Part shown: one piece after another, positions 836 through 8,329 of the stretch
Numbering within the stretch: position 1 is the first letter of the stretch
Layout of the letters: every line of letters begins with the position of its first letter
NCBI RefSeq assembly: GCF_016765795.1
Contig: NZ_JAESVP010000001.1
Span: forward strand, 434,001-498,000
Direction of reading: 5' to 3'
DNA: 64,000 nt
Source: Fuscibacter oryzae
Lineage (GTDB): Bacteria; Pseudomonadota; Alphaproteobacteria; Rhodobacterales; Rhodobacteraceae
The notes under the pieces: model-generated
The model's input: the letters and a program-made list of their open reading frames with translations, nothing else
What the model was told of the DNA's origin: nothing
Databases searched by the model: none
Made by a program: the position numbers and the translations under genes

Positions 836-1132
836 TCAAACCGGGGGCGCAAGCCCTTCGACGATTACCACATGGGCGATGCTGGCCGCCTCGCGCCGCG
901 CCAGCGCCGCCTGATATTCGCCCGAGGCGTAGCAGGCCTTTGCCGCTGCCAACGACGGGAATTCGATCACCACATGGCGGTCCAGCACAGGCCCCTCCAT
1001 CACCTCGCTTGCCCCGCCCCGCGCCAGAAACCGTCCGCCATGCGCGGCAAAGGCCACCGGGGCCAGCCGTTGATACTCGGCATAGGCGGCGGGGTCGGTC
1101 ACGGTAACATGGGCAATCCAATAGGCGGTCAT
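836..1132 (-). CDS. DUF1330 domain protein
   Basis: This 98-residue protein matches DUF1330, a small ferredoxin-like alpha/beta-barrel family: it opens MTAYWIAHVTVTDP, has a central GRFLARGG turn, and carries VIEFPSLAAAKACYASGEYQ near the middle. Members are full-length at about 95-100 residues and have no settled biochemical role, although many sit beside catabolic oxygenases. The start overlaps the stop of the upstream gntR gene by 4 bp, indicating translational coupling. This regulator therefore controls, or is made with, an accessory protein next to the divergent flavin monooxygenase operon. Function remains unknown. Confidence 0.85.
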   Translation of the reverse strand: MTAYWIAHVTVTDPAAYAEYQRLAPVAFAAHGGRFLARGGASEVMEGPVLDRHVVIEFPSLAAAKACYASGEYQAALARREAASIAHVVIVEGLAPPV

Positions 1133-1812
1133 GGGGCCTCGATCAGCAGGGTGTGGGCGATTTCGGCGGCATCATCCAAATGGTCGCGCACCGCCTGCGC
1201 CGCCCCTGCCGGATCGCTGCGGCAGATCGCGGCACAGATGCGCGCCATGTGGGCGGGGCCAGAAATGCGGCGGTTGGTGCTGGCCAGCGTCAACGCCCGC
1301 AGGCGCGAGATGCGCCCGTTCAGCCGCTTGACGATCTCCCAGGCAATGTCATTTTCGGCGGCGGTAAAGATCACCTCGTAAAAGGCGGTCGTCGTGTCGC
1401 GCGCCCGGCTGGCCACCCCTTCGCTGACCGCCACCTCCAACACGGCCAGCGCGGCTTGCAGGCGGGCGTGCACCTTGGCATCGGCCTTGCGCGCGCAGGC
1501 GGCGGCGGCATCTGCCTCCAACAGGCGACGAATGTCATAGATCTGGCGCGCGCGCGGCCAATCCAGCGTGGCCACCACCGGCCCGCTGCGCGGCATGGTT
1601 TCAACCAGCCCCTCGGCCTCCAGCACCCGGATCGCCTCGCGCACGACAGAGCGCGAAACGCCCAACTGGTCGCACAAAGTGCGTTCAACCAGACGATCAC
1701 CGCCGTTGAACCGGGCAGAGATGATGGCGTTGCGCAACCGCTCTACCGCCAGCTCGCGCAGCGTGGTCGGTGAATGCTCTATCCGCAGGTCGGTGTCATG
1801 CGTGTTATCCAT
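1129..1812 (-). CDS. GntR-family regulator, FCD (FadR) subfamily
   Basis: The 227-residue protein has an N-terminal winged helix at about residues 15-80 (LVERTLCDQLGVSRSVVREAI is the recognition segment) followed by an all-helical FCD ligand-binding domain. FCD regulators usually sense a carboxylic acid, often through a metal held by Asp and His residues. The ATG at 1812 gives the normal length; an extension to 1860 would run into the promoter region. The gene is transcribed away from the DUF1185-hydrolase-flavin reductase-monooxygenase-ALDH operon, and the shared 98-bp gap holds palindromic sequence. It is therefore the obvious candidate regulator of that operon and of itself. This is inference from arrangement. 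Confidence 0.9.
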   Translation of the reverse strand: MDNTHDTDLRIEHSPTTLRELAVERLRNAIISARFNGGDRLVERTLCDQLGVSRSVVREAIRVLEAEGLVETMPRSGPVVATLDWPRARQIYDIRRLLEADAAAACARKADAKVHARLQAALAVLEVAVSEGVASRARDTTTAFYEVIFTAAENDIAWEIVKRLNGRISRLRALTLASTNRRISGPAHMARICAAICRSDPAGAAQAVRDHLDDAAEIAHTLLIEAP

Positions 1813-1853
1813 GCCCCGTTTTAACGATCCGCGCCCGACCTCGCAACAAAAAG

Positions 1854-1886
1854 TTGACATTCGGTATTATGGTATACCAACATACC
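1854..1886. promoter_or_regulatory. Putative -35 box and GntR operator in divergent gap
   Basis: TTGACA at 1854-1859 is a perfect -35 hexamer reading rightward. A perfect 10-bp palindrome TGGTATACCA lies at 1870-1879, and GGTAT (1871-1875) is repeated inverted as ATACC (1882-1886). FCD-GntR operators are short AT-containing palindromes with TGGT/ACCA ends, so this is a good candidate. I cannot place a convincing -10 hexamer. A strong GGAGG ribosome site follows, 6 bases before the ATG at 1911. Confidence 0.5.
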
Positions 1887-1910
1887 AAAAATCCCACCCC
1901 GGAGGCCGCC

Positions 1911-2513
1911 ATGCCAGCACAGATTCGCAAGACCTACCTCAACATCGAAACCACACTGATCGAAGGGGGCCGTGCCGCGCCAAAACCGCTACGGCTGATC
2001 TCGGCGGCGGCTGTGCTGAAAAACCCTTGGGCCGGACGCGGCTTTGTCGAGGATCTGAAGCCAGAAATTCACGCCGTCGCCCCCGAACTGGGCGCGCTGC
2101 TGACCGCGATGATCCTTGAGGCGGCGGGCGGGGCCGACAATGTGGAAGGCTATGGCAAGGCCGCCGTAGTGGGCCTTGACGGAGAGCTGGAGCACGCCAA
2201 CGCCCTGATCCACACCCTGCGCTTTGGCAACCATTACCGGCAGGCGCTGGGGGCCAAGACCTATCTGGCCTTCACCAATGTGCGCGGTGCGGCCAACACG
2301 CCAGTAATGATTCCGCTGATGGACAAGAATGACGAAGGTCGCCGTTCGCATTACCAGACCATTCATTTCGCCATTCCCGATGCTCCTGCGGCGGATGAGA
2401 TCATCGTGGCGCTTGGGGCCTCGACCGGGGGGCGTCCGCATCACCGCATCGGCGACCGTTATCAGGATCTGAAGGATCTGGGCCATGATGTCGCAAACCC
2501 TGCGGCTGTCTGA
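1911..2513 (+). CDS. DUF1185 'amino acid synthesis' family protein
   Basis: The 200-residue protein belongs to PF06684 (DUF1185). The start ATG follows a strong GGAGG site. Recognisable stretches include NPWAGRGFVEDL near the N-terminus and GRRSHYQTIHFAIPDAP in the C-terminal half. The one structural study of the family that I recall describes a variant of the Bacillus chorismate mutase fold and suggests a role in amino-acid metabolism; no reaction is established. It is the first gene of a five-gene rightward operon whose last 29 bases overlap the next gene. Because RutC (YjgF family) also has a chorismate-mutase-like fold, it may fill a RutC-like place in a flavin-monooxygenase pathway. That analogy is inference. 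Confidence 0.85.
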   Translation: MPAQIRKTYLNIETTLIEGGRAAPKPLRLISAAAVLKNPWAGRGFVEDLKPEIHAVAPELGALLTAMILEAAGGADNVEGYGKAAVVGLDGELEHANALIHTLRFGNHYRQALGAKTYLAFTNVRGAANTPVMIPLMDKNDEGRRSHYQTIHFAIPDAPAADEIIVALGASTGGRPHHRIGDRYQDLKDLGHDVANPAAV

Positions 2514-3279
2514 CGGCGCGACCGCCCGCTTGCTGGTGGCGGGCGCGGGCGAGCCGTTGCTGCTGATCCATGGTGTCGGCCTGCGGGCCGAAGCCTGGGG
2601 GCCGCAGATCGACGCGCTGGCGACTTCGGCACGGGTGATCGCGGTCGATATGCCGGGCCATGGCGACAGCACGCCACTGCCAGAGGGCGCGCGCCTGCCC
2701 GATTACGTTGCCTGGGCCGCGCGTGTCATTGCGGCGCTTGGCCTCGGGCCTGTCAATGTTGCGGGCCATTCGATGGGATCGCTGATCGCGGCGGGCCTTG
2801 CTGTCGAACACCCTGATCTGGTTCGCCGGGTTGCCCTGCTGAATGGCGTTCACCGCCGGGATCAGGCGGCCCGTGCCGCCGTTCTGGCCCGCGCGGATCA
2901 GATTTCCACGGGGCATGGCAGCATCGATGCCCCTCTTGCGCGCTGGTTCACCGAAGATCAGGCCGCACAGCGCCAGCAGGTCGCAGGCTGGCTAGGTCAG
3001 GTCAGCACCGCTGGCTATGCCGCTGCCTACCGTGCCTTTGCCGAGGGTGATGGCGTTTATGCCGACCGCCTTGGCGAAATCCGCTGCCCGCTTCTGGCGC
3101 TGACCGCCGATGGCGATGCCAATTCCACGGGGCTGATGTCTCACAGCATGGCCGCGCAGGCTCGATTGGGCCGCGCCGTGGTAATTCCGGGCCACCGCCA
3201 TATGGTTAACCTGACCGCCCCCGGAACGGTTTCGGATGCGCTGAGAAACTGGCTTTCAACCAAGGAGTTTCAGGAATGA
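2485..3279 (+). CDS. Alpha/beta-fold hydrolase (RutD-like position)
   Basis: This 264-residue protein is a classical alpha/beta hydrolase. The oxyanion motif is HGVG at 29-32, the nucleophile elbow GHSMG places Ser96, the acid is probably Asp211 (TADGD), and His239 lies in PGHRHM. All three catalytic residues are intact, so it should be an active hydrolase, perhaps acting on a carbamate, ester or enol-lactone intermediate. The start overlaps the preceding gene by 29 bases, and an AAGGAT ribosome site sits ahead of two adjacent ATGs (2485 or 2488). It overlaps the next gene by 4 bp. Within the operon it occupies the place RutD has in the pyrimidine-degrading Rut set. Confidence 0.88.
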   Translation: MMSQTLRLSDGATARLLVAGAGEPLLLIHGVGLRAEAWGPQIDALATSARVIAVDMPGHGDSTPLPEGARLPDYVAWAARVIAALGLGPVNVAGHSMGSLIAAGLAVEHPDLVRRVALLNGVHRRDQAARAAVLARADQISTGHGSIDAPLARWFTEDQAAQRQQVAGWLGQVSTAGYAAAYRAFAEGDGVYADRLGEIRCPLLALTADGDANSTGLMSHSMAAQARLGRAVVIPGHRHMVNLTAPGTVSDALRNWLSTKEFQE

Positions 3280-4199
3280 CACCTGTCGATCCCCGCGCGC
3301 TGCGTGATGCCTTCGGCTGCTTCATGACCGGCGTCACGGTTGTCACCACCACGACGGCCGAAGGCAAACCGGTGGGCTTTACTGCCAATTCCTTCTCGTC
3401 GGTCTCGCTGGATCCGCCGCTGTTGCTGGTGTCGATCGCCAACAGTTCTTCCAACCTGACGGCCTTTGCTGCTGGCAAGGGTCTTGCCGTGAACATTCTG
3501 GCCGAAGGACAAAAGGATGTCTCGTCAACCTTCGCGCGCCCGTCCGATGACCGCTTTGCCAGCGTCTATTGGCGCCAAGGTCCGGTCGGCTCGCCGCTGA
3601 TCGCAGGGGTCTCTGCCTGGTTTGACTGCACGCTGGAACAGGTGGTTCCGGCGGGCGACCACACCATCCTGATCGGCCGCATCGGCGCGTTCGAGGCAAC
3701 CCCCGCACCCGGCCTTGGCTATTACCGGGGCGCCTATGTCACCCCGGCGCAGACGGCAGCGCAACTGCCCACCGGGCCGGATGTGGTGATCACCGCCATT
3801 CTGGAATGCGAAGGCAAGGTTCTGCTGCAAGATGACGGACGCGGCGGGCTGACCCTGCCCATGGCCCGCGTTGGCCGCGAAGGCGTGCAGGTGGCTCTTG
3901 CCCAACTGATCGCCGGCACCGGCCTGCCCGCCACGGCAGGCGAGATTTACGCCGTTTATGACGATGTGGCCCAAGGCAAGCAGCACATCGCCTTTCGCTG
4001 CCCCGCCAGCCCCGGCACGCCCGCCAAGGGCAGCTTTGTCGATCGTTCGCCCGAAGGGGTTGCCGATGTTACCGACCCCGCCATGCTGACCATGCTGGAA
4101 CGTCTGGCTGCCGAGGCGCGCATGGGCAATTACGGCCTTTACTTCGGGACACATGAACAGGGACGCGTGCAACGGATCGGGGAAAGGAAAAACCCATGA
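3276..4199 (+). CDS. Flavin reductase fused to a degenerate Nudix-like domain
   Basis: This 307-residue protein has two parts. Residues 1-160 are a DIM6/NTAB-type flavin reductase (MTGVTVVTTTTAEGKPVGFTAN, then SLDPPLLLVSIA and the FARPSDDRF region), which supplies reduced FMN to a partner monooxygenase, as RutF and HpaC do. Residues 168-300 resemble a Nudix hydrolase (VVITAILECEGKVLLQ, then GREGVQVALAQLIAGTGL). The Nudix-box glutamates expected in the REUxEE segment read AQLIAG, so this half is probably not catalytic and may bind nucleotide or flavin. A strong AAGGAG site precedes the start, and 4-bp overlaps tie it to both neighbours. The next gene encodes the expected flavin-dependent monooxygenase. 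Confidence 0.85.
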   Translation: MTPVDPRALRDAFGCFMTGVTVVTTTTAEGKPVGFTANSFSSVSLDPPLLLVSIANSSSNLTAFAAGKGLAVNILAEGQKDVSSTFARPSDDRFASVYWRQGPVGSPLIAGVSAWFDCTLEQVVPAGDHTILIGRIGAFEATPAPGLGYYRGAYVTPAQTAAQLPTGPDVVITAILECEGKVLLQDDGRGGLTLPMARVGREGVQVALAQLIAGTGLPATAGEIYAVYDDVAQGKQHIAFRCPASPGTPAKGSFVDRSPEGVADVTDPAMLTMLERLAAEARMGNYGLYFGTHEQGRVQRIGERKNP

Positions 4200-5233
4200 A
4201 ATTCTCACTCTTCATCCATATGGAGCGCGTTTCGGCCGAGGACGACCAGCGCCAGCTTTATGAGGAGATGATCGAGCTGTGCCGCATTGCCGACGAAGGC
4301 GGAATGCACGCCATCTGGACCGGCGAACACCACGGCATGAACTTTACCATCGCGCCCAACCCCTTGCTGAACCTTGTCGATCTGGCACGGCGAACCAAGA
4401 ATGTGCGTCTGGGCACCGGCACGGTGATTGCGCCCTTCTGGCACCCGATCCGCCTGGCGGGCGAGGCGGCGATGGCCGACATCATCATGGACGGGCGGCT
4501 GGACCTTGGCATCGCGCGCGGGGCCTATTCTTTCGAATATGAACGGCTGATGCCCGGCATGGATGCCTGGGGCGCGGGCGGGCGGATGCGCGAACTGATC
4601 CCGGCGGTCAAGGCGCTGTGGGACGGCGATTATACCCACGACGGTGAATACTGGCAGTTCCCGAAAACCACCGCTTCGCCCAAACCCCTGCAACAGCCCG
4701 GCCCGCCGATCTGGGTCGCCGCGCGCGACCCCAACAGCCATGACTTTGCCGTCTCGCAAGGGTGCAACGTGCAGGTGACGCCGCTTCATCTGGGCGATGA
4801 AGAGGTGGTCAGCCTGATGGACCGTTTCAACGCCGCCTGTGCCGCCCATCCGCATGTGCCGCGCCCCAAGATCATGGTGCTGCGCCACGCCTATGTTGCC
4901 GACAGCGAGGCGGATGCCCAACTGGCCGCCGACGAAATCAACAAGTTCTACTGCTATTTCGGGGCCTGGTTCAAAAACGAACGCCCGATTTCGCAAGGGT
5001 TGATTCAAGAGCTGACCGACGCCGAAATCGCCGCCCATCCGTTCTATTCCGCTGCCGCCATGCGCAAGAACCAGATCATCGGCGAACCGGCCGAAGTGAT
5101 CGAGCGGATCAAGGGCTATGAAGCACTGGGCTATGACGAGTTCAGTTTCTGGATCGACACCGGGATGAGCTTTGCGCGCAAGAAAGCCTCGCTTGAACGG
5201 CTGATCCGCGATGTAATGCCCGCCTTCGCCTGA
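4196..5233 (+). CDS. LLM-class flavin-dependent monooxygenase
   Basis: The 345-residue protein is a bacterial luciferase-like TIM-barrel monooxygenase. It contains WTGEHHGMNFTIAPNP at about residues 40-55, the core VRLGTGTVIAPFWHPIRLA, and DLGIARGAYSFEYER typical of the flavin-binding region. These enzymes use FMNH2 delivered by a separate reductase to insert oxygen into, or open, a substrate. The partner reductase is the gene immediately upstream with a 4-bp overlap. The protein is close in type to RutA-like and alkanal-monooxygenase-like members, but the substrate is not predictable. A following ALDH could oxidise an aldehyde product. Confidence 0.9.
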   Translation: MKFSLFIHMERVSAEDDQRQLYEEMIELCRIADEGGMHAIWTGEHHGMNFTIAPNPLLNLVDLARRTKNVRLGTGTVIAPFWHPIRLAGEAAMADIIMDGRLDLGIARGAYSFEYERLMPGMDAWGAGGRMRELIPAVKALWDGDYTHDGEYWQFPKTTASPKPLQQPGPPIWVAARDPNSHDFAVSQGCNVQVTPLHLGDEEVVSLMDRFNAACAAHPHVPRPKIMVLRHAYVADSEADAQLAADEINKFYCYFGAWFKNERPISQGLIQELTDAEIAAHPFYSAAAMRKNQIIGEPAEVIERIKGYEALGYDEFSFWIDTGMSFARKKASLERLIRDVMPAFA

Positions 5234-5255
5234 CACCGCCTGACAGGGAACCCCG

Positions 5256-6719
5256 ATGGACCGCTTTCAGCATTATATCGACGGCCAGTTCGAAGATGGC
5301 AGCGCCAGTTTCGACAGCCTTGATCCCGCAACCGGCACGCCTTGGGCCACCATGCCCATGGCCACGGCGGGCGATGTGGACCGCGCGGTAAGGGCGGCCC
5401 ATCGGGCCTTCGTCGCTGGTCCCTGGCCCGCGCTGACGGCTTCGGCACGGGGCAAGCTGTTGATGCGGCTGGCCGATCTGGTGCAGGCGGCAGCCCCCGA
5501 TCTTGCGCGGTTGGAAACCCGCGATACGGGCAAGATTATCCGCGAGACATCGGCCCAGATCGCCTATGTCGCGGAATATTATCGCTATTACGCGGGCCTT
5601 GCCGACAAGATCGAAGGCGCGCATCTGCCGATCGACAAGCCTGATATGGAGGTGTGGCTGCGCCGCGAACCCGTGGGCGTGGTGGCCGCCATCGTGCCGT
5701 GGAACAGCCAGTTGTTCCTGTCGGCGGTGAAACTTGGCCCGGCGCTGGCCGCAGGCTGCACTGTGGTTCTGAAAGCGTCTGAGGACGGCCCAGCCCCCCT
5801 GCTGGCTTTTGCGCGGCTGGTTGAACAGGCGGGCTTTCCGGCGGGCGTCGTCAATATCCTGACCGGCGGGCCAGAGGCGGGGGTGGCGCTGACTACGCAC
5901 CCCAAGGTGGCGCATATCGCCTTTACCGGCGGGCCGGAGACCGCGCGGCATATCGTGCGCGGATCGGCCGAAAACCTAGCCAAAGTGTCGCTTGAACTGG
6001 GCGGCAAATCGCCCTTCATCGTGTTTGAAGATGCCGATCTGGACAGTGCGGCGAATGCGCAGGTTTCGGGTATCTTTGCTGCGACCGGGCAAAGCTGTGT
6101 GGCCGGGTCGCGCCTGCTGGTGCAGCGCAGCGTCAAAGATGCCTTTCTGGCCCGGCTGAAAGCCAAGGCCGAAGCCGTGGCCATCGGCGCGCCCGACCGG
6201 ATGGAAACCGAGGTTGGCCCCCTTTGCACCGCACGCCAGCGTGACCGCATCGCCGCGTTGATTGCGCAGTCGCTGGCGGCAGGGGCAAAGCTGGTTACCG
6301 GCGGGCAAGCCCCAGAAGGCGCGGGCTTTTACTTTCCACCGACAATTCTTGATTGCAGCGAGGTGCCCGACGCCCCTGCCCTTCAACAGGAATTCTTTGG
6401 CCCTGTGCTGTCGGTCGTGACCTTTGATACCGAGGAACAGGCGCTGGCCCTTGCCAATGATACCGCATTCGGCCTCGCCTCGGGCGTCTTCACCCGCAGC
6501 CTGACCCGCGCGCATCGCATGATCCGGCGCATCCGCGCCGGGGTCGTCTGGGTGAACACCTATCGCGCGGTGTCGCCCATCGCGCCCTTTGGCGGCCACG
6601 GCCTGTCGGGCCATGGGCGGGAGGGCGGCATGGCGGCGGCATTGGATTACACCGCGGTCAAAACCGTCTGGCTGCGCACATCGGACGACCCGATCCCCGA
6701 CCCGTTCGTGATGCGCTAG
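5256..6719 (+). CDS. NAD(P)-dependent aldehyde dehydrogenase
   Basis: The full-length 487-residue ALDH has all catalytic residues: Asn150 (PWN), general base Glu247 in LELGG, and nucleophile Cys281 in GQSCVAGSR. The C-terminal FGGHGLSGHGREGG segment, equivalent to the family's GxKxSGxGRE motif, is also present. It oxidises an aldehyde to the acid with NAD(P)+. It starts 22 bp after the monooxygenase with a GGGAA-type ribosome site and closes the operon. It probably processes an aldehyde released by the upstream flavin monooxygenase and hydrolase. In the Rut pathway the corresponding step is a reductase (RutE), so this operon would favour oxidation. The 3' end overlaps the convergent CoA-transferase gene by 4 bp. 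Confidence 0.92.
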   Translation: MDRFQHYIDGQFEDGSASFDSLDPATGTPWATMPMATAGDVDRAVRAAHRAFVAGPWPALTASARGKLLMRLADLVQAAAPDLARLETRDTGKIIRETSAQIAYVAEYYRYYAGLADKIEGAHLPIDKPDMEVWLRREPVGVVAAIVPWNSQLFLSAVKLGPALAAGCTVVLKASEDGPAPLLAFARLVEQAGFPAGVVNILTGGPEAGVALTTHPKVAHIAFTGGPETARHIVRGSAENLAKVSLELGGKSPFIVFEDADLDSAANAQVSGIFAATGQSCVAGSRLLVQRSVKDAFLARLKAKAEAVAIGAPDRMETEVGPLCTARQRDRIAALIAQSLAAGAKLVTGGQAPEGAGFYFPPTILDCSEVPDAPALQQEFFGPVLSVVTFDTEEQALALANDTAFGLASGVFTRSLTRAHRMIRRIRAGVVWVNTYRAVSPIAPFGGHGLSGHGREGGMAAALDYTAVKTVWLRTSDDPIPDPFVMR

Positions 6720-8203
6720 GGCTGCATCCGCCCGGTGTCGCGCAGGCGAACGTGCCAGGACAGTGCCTCTTCCAGCACATGGGGGGTGTGGCCGCCCAGT
6801 TTGCAGGCGCGGGCATGATAGTCGGCCAGCAGCGGGCGCCATTCGGGCGCGGCGCAGTTGTCGATCACCCGAAGCGCCCGTTCGCGTGGGGCAAGGCCGC
6901 GCAGATCGGCAAGGCCATGTTCGGTGACCAGAATATCCACGTCGTGCTCGGTATGATCGACATGGGAAACCATCGGCACCACCGAAGAAATTCGGCCACC
7001 CTTGGCGGTGGATTTCGACACAAAGATCGACAGCAGCGCATTGCGGGCAAAATCGCCCGATCCGCCGATGCCGTTCATCATCTGCGTGCCCATCACATGA
7101 GTGGAGTTGACGTTGCCGTAGATATCCACCTCCAACGCGGTGTTGATGGCGATCAAGCCCAAACGGCGCACCACCTCCGGGTGGTTCGAAATTTCCTGCG
7201 GGCGCAGGATCAGCCGCGATTTATAGCGCTCGAACTCTGGCATAACCTGCGCGTTCTTCGCCTCGGACAGGGTGATCGAGGAGCCAGAGGCAAAGGTCAG
7301 CTTGCCCGCATCCATCAGATCGAACGTCGAATCCTGCAATACCTCAGAATACATCTTCAGGTCATGGAACGGGCTGTCGATCAGCCCGTGCAGCACGGCA
7401 TTGGCAATCGTGCCGATGCCGGCCTGCAAGGGGGCAAGGCGGTTGTCCATCCGGCCCGCCGCCACCTCGTTCAGAAAGAACGCGATCAGATGCCCGGCAA
7501 TGGCGCGGGTTTCATCATCGGGCGGCTGGATCGCGGCAGAACTGTCCTGCTTGTGGGTCAGCACGATGGCCGCGATTTTCTCGGGTGGAATCGGAATATA
7601 GGGCAGGCCGATACGGCTGTCGGGCGTCACGACTGGAATCGGCATCCGGTTGGGCCGGTAGGTCGGAATGAAGATGTCATGCAGCCCTTCGAACGACAGG
7701 GGCTGCGCGGTGTTGATTTCAACGATGACCTTGGGTGCGAGGATGGCAAAGGACGCCGAATTTCCAACGGAAGAGGTGGGGATGATCCCCCCTTCCTCGG
7801 TAATCGCCGCTGCCTCGATCACGGCAATATCCACGCCCGGAATCTGCCGGGTGCGCAATTGTTCGACCGTTTCCGACAGATGTTGGTCGATGAACATCAC
7901 CTCGCCCGCGTTGATTGCGCGGCGCAGGCCCGGGTCAGACTGAAACGGCATGCGGCGGGCGGTCACATGCGCCTCGGCCAGAATCTTGTCCAGGTCATGG
8001 CCCAGGCTTGCCCCCGTCATCAGGGTGATCTTCAGCGGCTCGGTCTTTGCCCGCTCGGCCAGCGCCAGAGGCACCGCCATCGCCTCGCCCGCGCGAGTAA
8101 AGCCTGACATGCCAACGACCATGCCATCCTTGATCATGGCGGCGGCTTCGGGGGCGGACATGATGCGCTGATGCAAGGCGGCGTTGCGGATACGGTCCTG
8201 CAT
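6716..8203 (-). CDS. Acetyl-CoA hydrolase/succinate CoA-transferase family enzyme
   Basis: The 495-residue protein belongs to the class I acetyl-CoA hydrolase/transferase family (Cat1, ScpC, AarC type). It begins MQDRIRNAALHQRIMSAPEA, followed by GMVVGMSGFTRAGEAMAVP. KMYSEVLQDSTFDL holds the likely catalytic glutamate, and GIGGSGDFARNA matches the conserved glycine-rich loop. Such enzymes exchange CoA between succinyl-, acetyl- or propionyl-CoA and free acids. I chose the ATG at 8203 because family members start at this MxxRIRN motif; ATGs at 8227 and further upstream are in frame but poorly supported. It is apparently monocistronic. Confidence 0.88.
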   Translation of the reverse strand: MQDRIRNAALHQRIMSAPEAAAMIKDGMVVGMSGFTRAGEAMAVPLALAERAKTEPLKITLMTGASLGHDLDKILAEAHVTARRMPFQSDPGLRRAINAGEVMFIDQHLSETVEQLRTRQIPGVDIAVIEAAAITEEGGIIPTSSVGNSASFAILAPKVIVEINTAQPLSFEGLHDIFIPTYRPNRMPIPVVTPDSRIGLPYIPIPPEKIAAIVLTHKQDSSAAIQPPDDETRAIAGHLIAFFLNEVAAGRMDNRLAPLQAGIGTIANAVLHGLIDSPFHDLKMYSEVLQDSTFDLMDAGKLTFASGSSITLSEAKNAQVMPEFERYKSRLILRPQEISNHPEVVRRLGLIAINTALEVDIYGNVNSTHVMGTQMMNGIGGSGDFARNALLSIFVSKSTAKGGRISSVVPMVSHVDHTEHDVDILVTEHGLADLRGLAPRERALRVIDNCAAPEWRPLLADYHARACKLGGHTPHVLEEALSWHVRLRDTGRMQP

Positions 8204-8284
8204 GGGATGGCCTTTGTTCAGGGGCATGATCTTGTTGCCGTAAACGACGGCGGCACTCTTGCATACAATTGCATGCTGAACTCT

Positions 8285-8313
8285 GCCATGCGAAATTTGC
8301 ATGGCTATATTAA
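8285..8313 (-). promoter_or_regulatory. Putative operator and -10 box of CoA-transferase gene
   Basis: A perfect 7-bp inverted repeat GCCATGC/GCATGGC (8285-8291 and 8299-8305) surrounds GAAATTT. On the leftward strand, TAATAT (8308-8313) lies immediately upstream and could be a -10 box, so a bound protein would sit at the transcription start. A second TTGCAT-rich stretch lies at about 8259-8275. Regulators of short-chain acyl-CoA genes in related bacteria bind TTTGCAAA-like sites, but the link is only suggestive. Confidence 0.4.
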
Positions 8314-8329
8314 AAAACAAATAACTCAG

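Follow-up and report, generated by a model that had tools for sequence, protein, structure and literature searches.

A probable trigonelline catabolic operon with a divergent GntR regulator in Fuscibacter oryzae

Trigonelline (N-methylnicotinate) is made by plants and is found in the sea. A gene cluster for its catabolism, tgnABCDEF, and the corresponding pathway were reportedly described in Acinetobacter baylyi ADP1 by Perchat et al. in 2018, a study that is also said to be the source of the reaction scheme for TgnA to TgnF. PMC8269262 states that the pathway begins with the opening of the trigonelline ring by TgnA/TgnB and that this compound supports growth of Ruegeria pomeroyi. According to a paper on 7-hydroxycoumarin (PMC7913881), TgnF is a DUF1185 homologue, and in A. 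baylyi ADP1 it enhances the oxidation of succinate semialdehyde that depends on TgnE. Here, we analyzed a seven-gene region of Fuscibacter oryzae that lies within a stretch of 64,000 nucleotides (contig NZ_JAESVP010000001.1, positions 434,001 to 498,000; hereafter the window, in which positions are numbered from its first letter). An initial annotation of this region had described five of its genes as an undescribed Rut-like operon of unknown substrate. Our comparisons indicate instead that they very probably (probability about 0.9) form a trigonelline catabolic operon, tgnF-tgnD-tgnA-tgnB-tgnC, with a divergently encoded GntR repressor of its own, trigonelline being the presumed substrate.

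Gene content and relationship to the tgn cluster

This assignment comes from a comparison with Acinetobacter sp. PK01. The plasmid NZ_CP094644 of this strain carries counterparts of all 7 genes, with order and orientation unchanged (DUF1330, GntR, and divergently DUF1185, hydrolase, tgnA, tgnB, and tgnC). Its record names tgnA and tgnB as the reductase and oxygenase components of a flavin-dependent trigonelline monooxygenase, and tgnC as (Z)-2-((N-methylformamido)methylene)-5-hydroxybutyrolactone dehydrogenase. The luciferase-like monooxygenase (LLM) of the window, the predicted oxygenase component TgnB (4196–5233, plus strand), is 77% identical to the annotated TgnB over 345 amino acids, and the predicted flavin reductase TgnA with its C-terminal domain (3276–4199, plus strand) is 51% identical to the annotated TgnA over 295 amino acids, the 2 reductases being 307 and 310 amino acids long. 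The pairing of LLM and reductase as a two-component system proposed earlier is supported. The alpha/beta hydrolase, a predicted TgnD (2485–3279, plus strand), shares 52% identity with a PK01 protein that is encoded in the same place and left unnamed in the record, and the DUF1185 protein, a predicted TgnF (1911–2513, plus strand), shares 66%. The aldehyde dehydrogenase (ALDH; 5256–6719, plus strand) is 70% identical to the annotated TgnC but only 36% identical to the PK01 succinate-semialdehyde dehydrogenase, and is therefore the likely counterpart of the hydroxylactone dehydrogenase TgnC and not of TgnE; its identification as a succinate-semialdehyde dehydrogenase was rejected. In a tree of 23 LLMs, compiled apart from 4 LLMs of this genome, the window protein and PK01 TgnB fall in a clade of 13 rows (support 96/100), Paraburkholderia caribensis joins next (14 rows, 89/98), and Escherichia coli RutA and SsuD lie outside; RutA, SsuD, and a Rhizobium LLM of 30% identity sit on long branches. 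The LLM thus belongs with proteins whose substrate is named, by annotation transfer rather than by experiment, which is one of the two outcomes that the initial annotation had listed as refuting its proposal; trigonelline, as the presumed substrate, takes the place of the unknown one. Judged by this gene-for-gene match, the system is an already described one, a well-preserved copy of a known operon and not a new one. What had looked like a strong candidate for a new catabolic system is thereby lost, and a presumed substrate and a pathway are gained in its stead.

The genes themselves are intact and tightly packed, at the positions where the initial annotation had placed them. The operon (1911–6719, plus strand) starts with the tgnF homologue (likely ATG at 1911; 233 bits to PF06684, AA_synth), the first 4 genes overlap by 29, 4, and 4 bases, and a gap of 22 bases precedes the ALDH gene. 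On the opposite strand lie the gene of the GntR/FCD regulator, a probable repressor (1129–1812; PF00392 and PF07729; the open reading frame reaches 1860, with a likely start at 1812), and the adjoining DUF1330 gene (836–1132; PF07045, 126 bits). This layout, together with the family matches, bears out the earlier description as a single operon with a GntR regulator and a DUF1330 partner. The span 1129–6719 once given for the region is right in its gene positions, but it begins at the GntR stop codon and leaves out the DUF1330 gene that was counted as part of the set. For all 7 genes, the rate of nonsynonymous substitution (dN) was well below that of synonymous substitution (dS) in comparisons with 4 relatives (with locus L006, for example, dN was 0.011 and dS 0.39 for DUF1185, and 0.022 and 0.337 for the LLM), and by this measure all of them are under constraint. 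The catalytic residues are intact, as stated before: Cys281 and Glu247 of the ALDH are identical in all 82 aligned loci, and in the hydrolase Ser96 (82/82), Asp211 (82/82), and His239 (81/81) do not vary, Asp211 being our presumed choice of the catalytic aspartate. Among the 22 PDB sequences found with the reductase, 3rh7 was the sole near-full-length match (E 2.6e-80).

To place the operon among related loci, genome contigs were scanned with the LLM; of at least 584 matches, the best 80, each at least 74% identical, were combined with 3 plasmid loci, which gave 83 loci (L001 and L002, with no LLM, were set aside), and the synteny counts hold for close relatives at this level of LLM identity. 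The F-D-A-B-C order was present in 75 of the 83 loci, in records named as alpha-, beta-, and gammaproteobacteria, and 47 loci have all 7 genes in the order of the window. Recurrence of the 5 genes as a neighborhood, which had been proposed as a check, is therefore strong, so that the other outcome listed as refuting, a failure of the genes to recur together, did not occur. Together with the constraint on the genes and the invariant catalytic residues, this shows that the arrangement is not due to chance. Individually, the LLM was found in 83 loci, the hydrolase and the ALDH in 82 each, DUF1185 and the reductase in 81 each, GntR in 78, and DUF1330 in 57, some loci being cut by contig ends in this last count. 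Three of the 8 loci without the F-D-A-B-C order come from contigs that are short or cut (L008, L011, and L017), and the other 5, from Caballeronia and Burkholderia (L042, L064, L071, L081, and L082), have no reductase gene in the usual place. All 5 have a TgnB-like LLM and DUF1185, and in 4 of them a reductase of about 40% identity is encoded nearby in inverted orientation.

Predicted pathway and alternative substrates

By analogy with the pathway of A. baylyi ADP1, from which the reactions are taken over, TgnA would reduce flavin, with which TgnB, consuming O2, would open the pyridinium ring, yielding (Z)-2-((N-methylformamido)methylene)-5-hydroxybutyrolactone. TgnC would oxidize this hydroxylactone to (E)-2-((N-methylformamido)methylene)succinate, which TgnD would hydrolyze to succinate semialdehyde, formate, CO2, and methylamine. 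The route to succinate would then be completed by a succinate-semialdehyde dehydrogenase encoded elsewhere in the genome, with TgnF assisting the semialdehyde step, and the methylamine could enter the N-methylglutamate pathway, for which genes are predicted next to the operon. That an N-heterocyclic ring is opened by oxidation, as already proposed in the initial annotation, is supported by way of the named pathway. Independent support for the TgnD step is suggested by a match of the hydrolase, over nearly its whole length, to PDB 3kxp, an alpha-(N-acetylaminomethylene)succinic acid hydrolase (E 9.8e-12), the substrate of which closely resembles that proposed for TgnD. The candidate succinate-semialdehyde dehydrogenase scores 699 bits against an NCBIfam cut-off of 646; it is on another contig, and no link between it and the trigonelline pathway was found.

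Several observations weigh against the trigonelline assignment. The tgn names in the PK01 record are themselves transferred annotation, the TgnA and TgnD homologues are just 51% to 52% identical to their PK01 counterparts, and no tgnE is present inside the operon. In the PDB search, an esterase and an enol-lactonase were stronger matches of the hydrolase than 3kxp. No dedicated transporter was found: the genome gave no match to the PK01 cytosine permease, and just one of 41%, on another contig, to the ABC binding protein of Gemmobacter fulvus. Finally, gmaS, mgs, or mgd genes (described below) of at least 70% identity occur in just 6 of the 83 related loci (L006, L009, L026, L034, L036, and L084), counted in flanks of at most about 9 kb.

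The operon could instead serve a close analogue of trigonelline, for instance homarine (N-methylpicolinate), through the same kind of chemistry. Predicted Mgd genes adjoin the operon, and Mgd has been reported in homarine catabolism (PMC13390433, citing a 2026 Nature Microbiology paper); moreover, related operons with more divergent LLMs (59% to 65% and 37% to 43% identity) exist in the same family, which therefore probably covers more than 1 substrate. However, the LLM is placed in the clade of annotated TgnB, and the annotated cluster comprises the same 5 enzymes and the same regulator. PMC8269262 also argues on steric grounds that activity of TgnA/TgnB on homarine is unlikely, and reports poorer growth of R. 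pomeroyi on homarine than on trigonelline. We consider a homarine-type substrate improbable. Still less credit is due to the initial proposal of a Rut-like system that is not yet described and serves another substrate; we assign almost no probability to it. The division of labor among LLM, flavin reductase, and alpha/beta hydrolase is indeed the same, and there is similarity to the E. coli Rut proteins: the reductase domain is 36% identical to RutF (E 1e-26), so that judging from this alignment their distant kinship is real, and the hydrolase is 26% identical to RutD (E 2e-10). The LLM, however, shares just 23% identity with E. coli RutA over 149 residues (E 0.001) and is not a RutA orthologue; the RutA model TIGR03612 (cut-off 498.3) is absent from the 25 NCBIfam models that the LLM matches at E 0.001, and the 7 matches of this model in the whole genome, the best with 78.5 bits, do not include the LLM locus. 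The hydrolase (56.9 bits to the RutD model TIGR03611, cut-off 238.5) and the reductase (90.9 bits to the RutF model TIGR03615, cut-off 254.75) miss the respective cut-offs by far, and the reductase is about twice as long as E. coli RutF (164 amino acids). The DUF1185 protein, once regarded as a stand-in for the YjgF protein RutC, had no match to RutC at E 10 or better, and is a homologue of the TgnF named in PMC7913881. BLAST of the 5 operon proteins against E. coli RutB, RutC, and RutE gave no significant match. Rut kinship of the operon was thus rejected on the models and BLAST, and the identical layout of the PK01 cluster and the LLM tree, which had been suggested as a check against RutA, point to the trigonelline operon.

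A putative operator and the DUF1185 protein

The region upstream of the operon was compared in 88 loci, 86 of them with a usable upstream stretch. A conserved palindrome, the putative GntR operator GTATNNTGGTATACCANNATAC, lies at 1864–1885, with its core TGGTATACCA at 1870–1879. The exact core was present in 75 of the 86 upstream regions, whereas just 37 of 5160 stretches of 163 bases taken at random from the same loci contained it; in the other 11 regions the best match to the core was 9/10 in 10 and 8/10 in 1. In the whole genome (3,808,773 bases), TGGTATACCA occurs at 1 place and a reversed control pattern at 4. A TTGACA sequence (1854–1859, plus strand), the likely -35 element, starts 16 bases before the palindrome, as it does in 55 of the 75 loci with the exact palindrome; inspection by eye gave no convincing -10 box at the usual sigma-70 distance from it. 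The natural reading is that the palindrome is a dedicated, if putative, repressor site, and that the GntR protein probably represses the operon by binding TGGTATACCA, which directly follows the -35 element. The presumed trigonelline regulator is thereby given an operator that can be tested, at a single place in the genome.

For the DUF1185 family, the literature searched contains 2 solved structures and no established function. A conserved histidine cluster and salt bridges have been described in BB2672, involving Glu90, Glu92, His93, His98, His144, Arg172, His174, and Arg176 (PMC2954203). All 8 residues have counterparts in the window protein (Glu92, Glu94, His95, His101, His147, Arg175, His177, and Arg179), and these were unchanged in all 81 aligned loci. 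In a tree of 39 DUF1185 proteins, the tgn members and those of other LLM operons lie together on one side of a branch (13 rows, support 100/98), apart from the divergent members and from those linked to 6-hydroxynicotinate reductase and UPF0280 genes, while the tgn group alone is weakly supported (58/89). Among 20 DUF1185 regions from relatives, picked by hand rather than at random from the matches, 8 belonged to the 6-hydroxynicotinate-reductase set, 3 to an LLM sister operon, and 1 to a tgn operon, and 8 to none of these. The genome of the window itself contains a second DUF1185 gene, of the 6-hydroxynicotinate-reductase kind (locus L142, contig 18, 3789–9379), behind genes for a molybdopterin-oxidase-like protein, a 6-hydroxynicotinate reductase, and UPF0280; in many relatives, 2 tandem DUF1185 genes occupy such a locus.

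Succinate semialdehyde itself cyclizes, and we tentatively propose, as a suggestion that is more likely wrong than right, that the TgnF branch of DUF1185 comprises enzymes, not mere helpers, that open aldehyde-acids from their cyclic hydroxylactone (pseudo-acid, lactol) forms, so that TgnC and succinate-semialdehyde dehydrogenase would always be offered the open chain. If so, the invariant Glu/His/Arg cluster would be the acid-base and carboxylate-binding site of TgnF. The proposal would explain why TgnF is reported to stimulate succinate-semialdehyde oxidation, because the semialdehyde cyclizes and TgnF would open the ring, and why the substrate of TgnC is named as a 5-hydroxybutyrolactone. 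The route of 6-hydroxynicotinate reductase passes through a formyl diacid, and recurrence of DUF1185 beside the genes of this enzyme and in the LLM ring-opening operons examined would likewise be accounted for, as would the presence of the DUF1185 protein HcdD in an operon whose 4 proteins together open a lactone. Two points weigh against it: 3 of the 4 divergent DUF1185 genes scanned have no ring-opening genes nearby, 1 being located beside ribosomal protein genes, and the authors of PMC7913881 report no effect or activity of HcdD. The broader idea of DUF1185 as a marker of ring opening across the whole family is weakened by the divergent members. For the TgnF branch, the proposal is a concrete hypothesis of DUF1185 function that is cheap to test.

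Sister operons, neighboring genes, and comparison with known systems

In 248 genomes drawn from the family, the LLM had matches at E 1e-80 or better in 52, at 1 place each; identity was at least 70% in 25 of them, 59% to 65% in 16, and 37% to 43% in 11. Six loci of the middle tier were examined (L180–L185, LLM 62% to 65%); 3 have the full F-D-A-B-C set, 3 have no match for at least 1 of the genes, and the exact TGGTATACCA was found in none of the 6. The tgn-type operon thus appears to have at least 1 close sister, for which the literature searched shows no substrate, and these sister operons in relatives remain worth having. Another operon, present in 3 relatives (L152, L153, and L160), combines ALDH, LLM (46% to 47% identical to that of Agrobacterium), DUF1185, and hydrolase genes, followed by a thiamine-diphosphate decarboxylase gene in L152 and L160 and a short flavin reductase gene in L160. 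A further type (L165 on Agrobacterium pAt, L167 in Mesorhizobium, and L186) consists of reductase, ALDH, LLM (about 42% identical to that of the window), hydrolase, and DUF1185 genes, to which NIPSNAP and carboxymuconolactone-decarboxylase genes are added in L165 and L186. Genes for small proteins recur at such operons: DUF1330 here and in 57 of the 83 loci, NIPSNAP in Rhizobium, a tautomerase in Arthrobacter, and a carboxymuconolactone decarboxylase in Acinetobacter and Burkholderia.

Left of the window (contig about 424.6–433.9 kb, the window starting at 434.0 kb) lie genes for a glutamine-amidotransferase protein, a GXGXG protein, and a glutamate-synthase-domain protein, together with a type III glutamate-ammonia ligase (657 bits, cut-off 470) and soxB- and soxA-type subunits (681 and 1284 bits, both above cut-off), with the small subunits also present. 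By family and order, we take these genes to be mgsABC-gmaS-mgdABCD, the N-methylglutamate route for methylamine. The same cluster includes a trimethylamine monooxygenase (828 bits, cut-off 675), a DUF1989/GCV_T protein like trimethylamine N-oxide demethylase, and a DmmA-like protein. The methylated-amine cluster as a whole (L162, contig 416000–434500; 659–17934 of this stretch, minus strand) ends 68 bases before the window, and an XRE/cupin gene (94–783) is the only gene between it and the tgn region. This gene was rejected as part of the operon, being present in 3 of the 83 related loci, in 1 of them at 25% identity, and so was the downstream neighbor ScpC (6716–8320), found in none of the 83. 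Since methylamine genes accompany just 6 of the 83 loci, the linkage of tgn and methylamine genes is not general; PK01 has weaker gmaS, mgs, and mgd matches. The adjacency of a predicted methylamine-releasing operon and a methylamine-using one is nevertheless an observation worth having.

Compared with known systems, the operon shares with the Rut uracil pathway (E. coli rutABCDEFG) an LLM, a flavin reductase, and an alpha/beta hydrolase acting on an N-heterocycle, but it has no RutB, RutC, or RutE, contains ALDH and DUF1185 genes, and differs in gene order and regulator. The 3kxp enzyme is, like the predicted TgnD, an alpha/beta hydrolase and matches it over nearly the full length, whereas it belongs to a different pathway, vitamin B6 catabolism, and its substrate differs from the one proposed for TgnD in the N-acyl and N-methyl groups. 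The operon on Arthrobacter dokdonellae pDCT5 (L168) is akin in its DUF1185 (2 copies), hydrolase, ALDH, reductase, and GntR genes, in an LLM of 51% identity to that of the window, and in its cytosine permease and succinate-semialdehyde dehydrogenase genes, but it has a different gene order with an inserted tautomerase gene. A pyridine pathway is known from Arthrobacter. The 7-hydroxycoumarin operon hcdDEFG (PMC7913881) is similar in having a DUF1185 protein, HcdD, in a ring-opening catabolic operon, but it has no LLM/hydrolase/ALDH set and its substrate is a nitrogen-free lactone. The PK01 tgn cluster differs in its flanking genes and in the permease and succinate-semialdehyde dehydrogenase genes within its 19-kb stretch, neither of which is in the immediate neighborhood here, whereas the counterparts of TgnA, TgnB, TgnC, TgnD, and TgnF and the divergent GntR and DUF1330 genes are the same in both, in order and in orientation.

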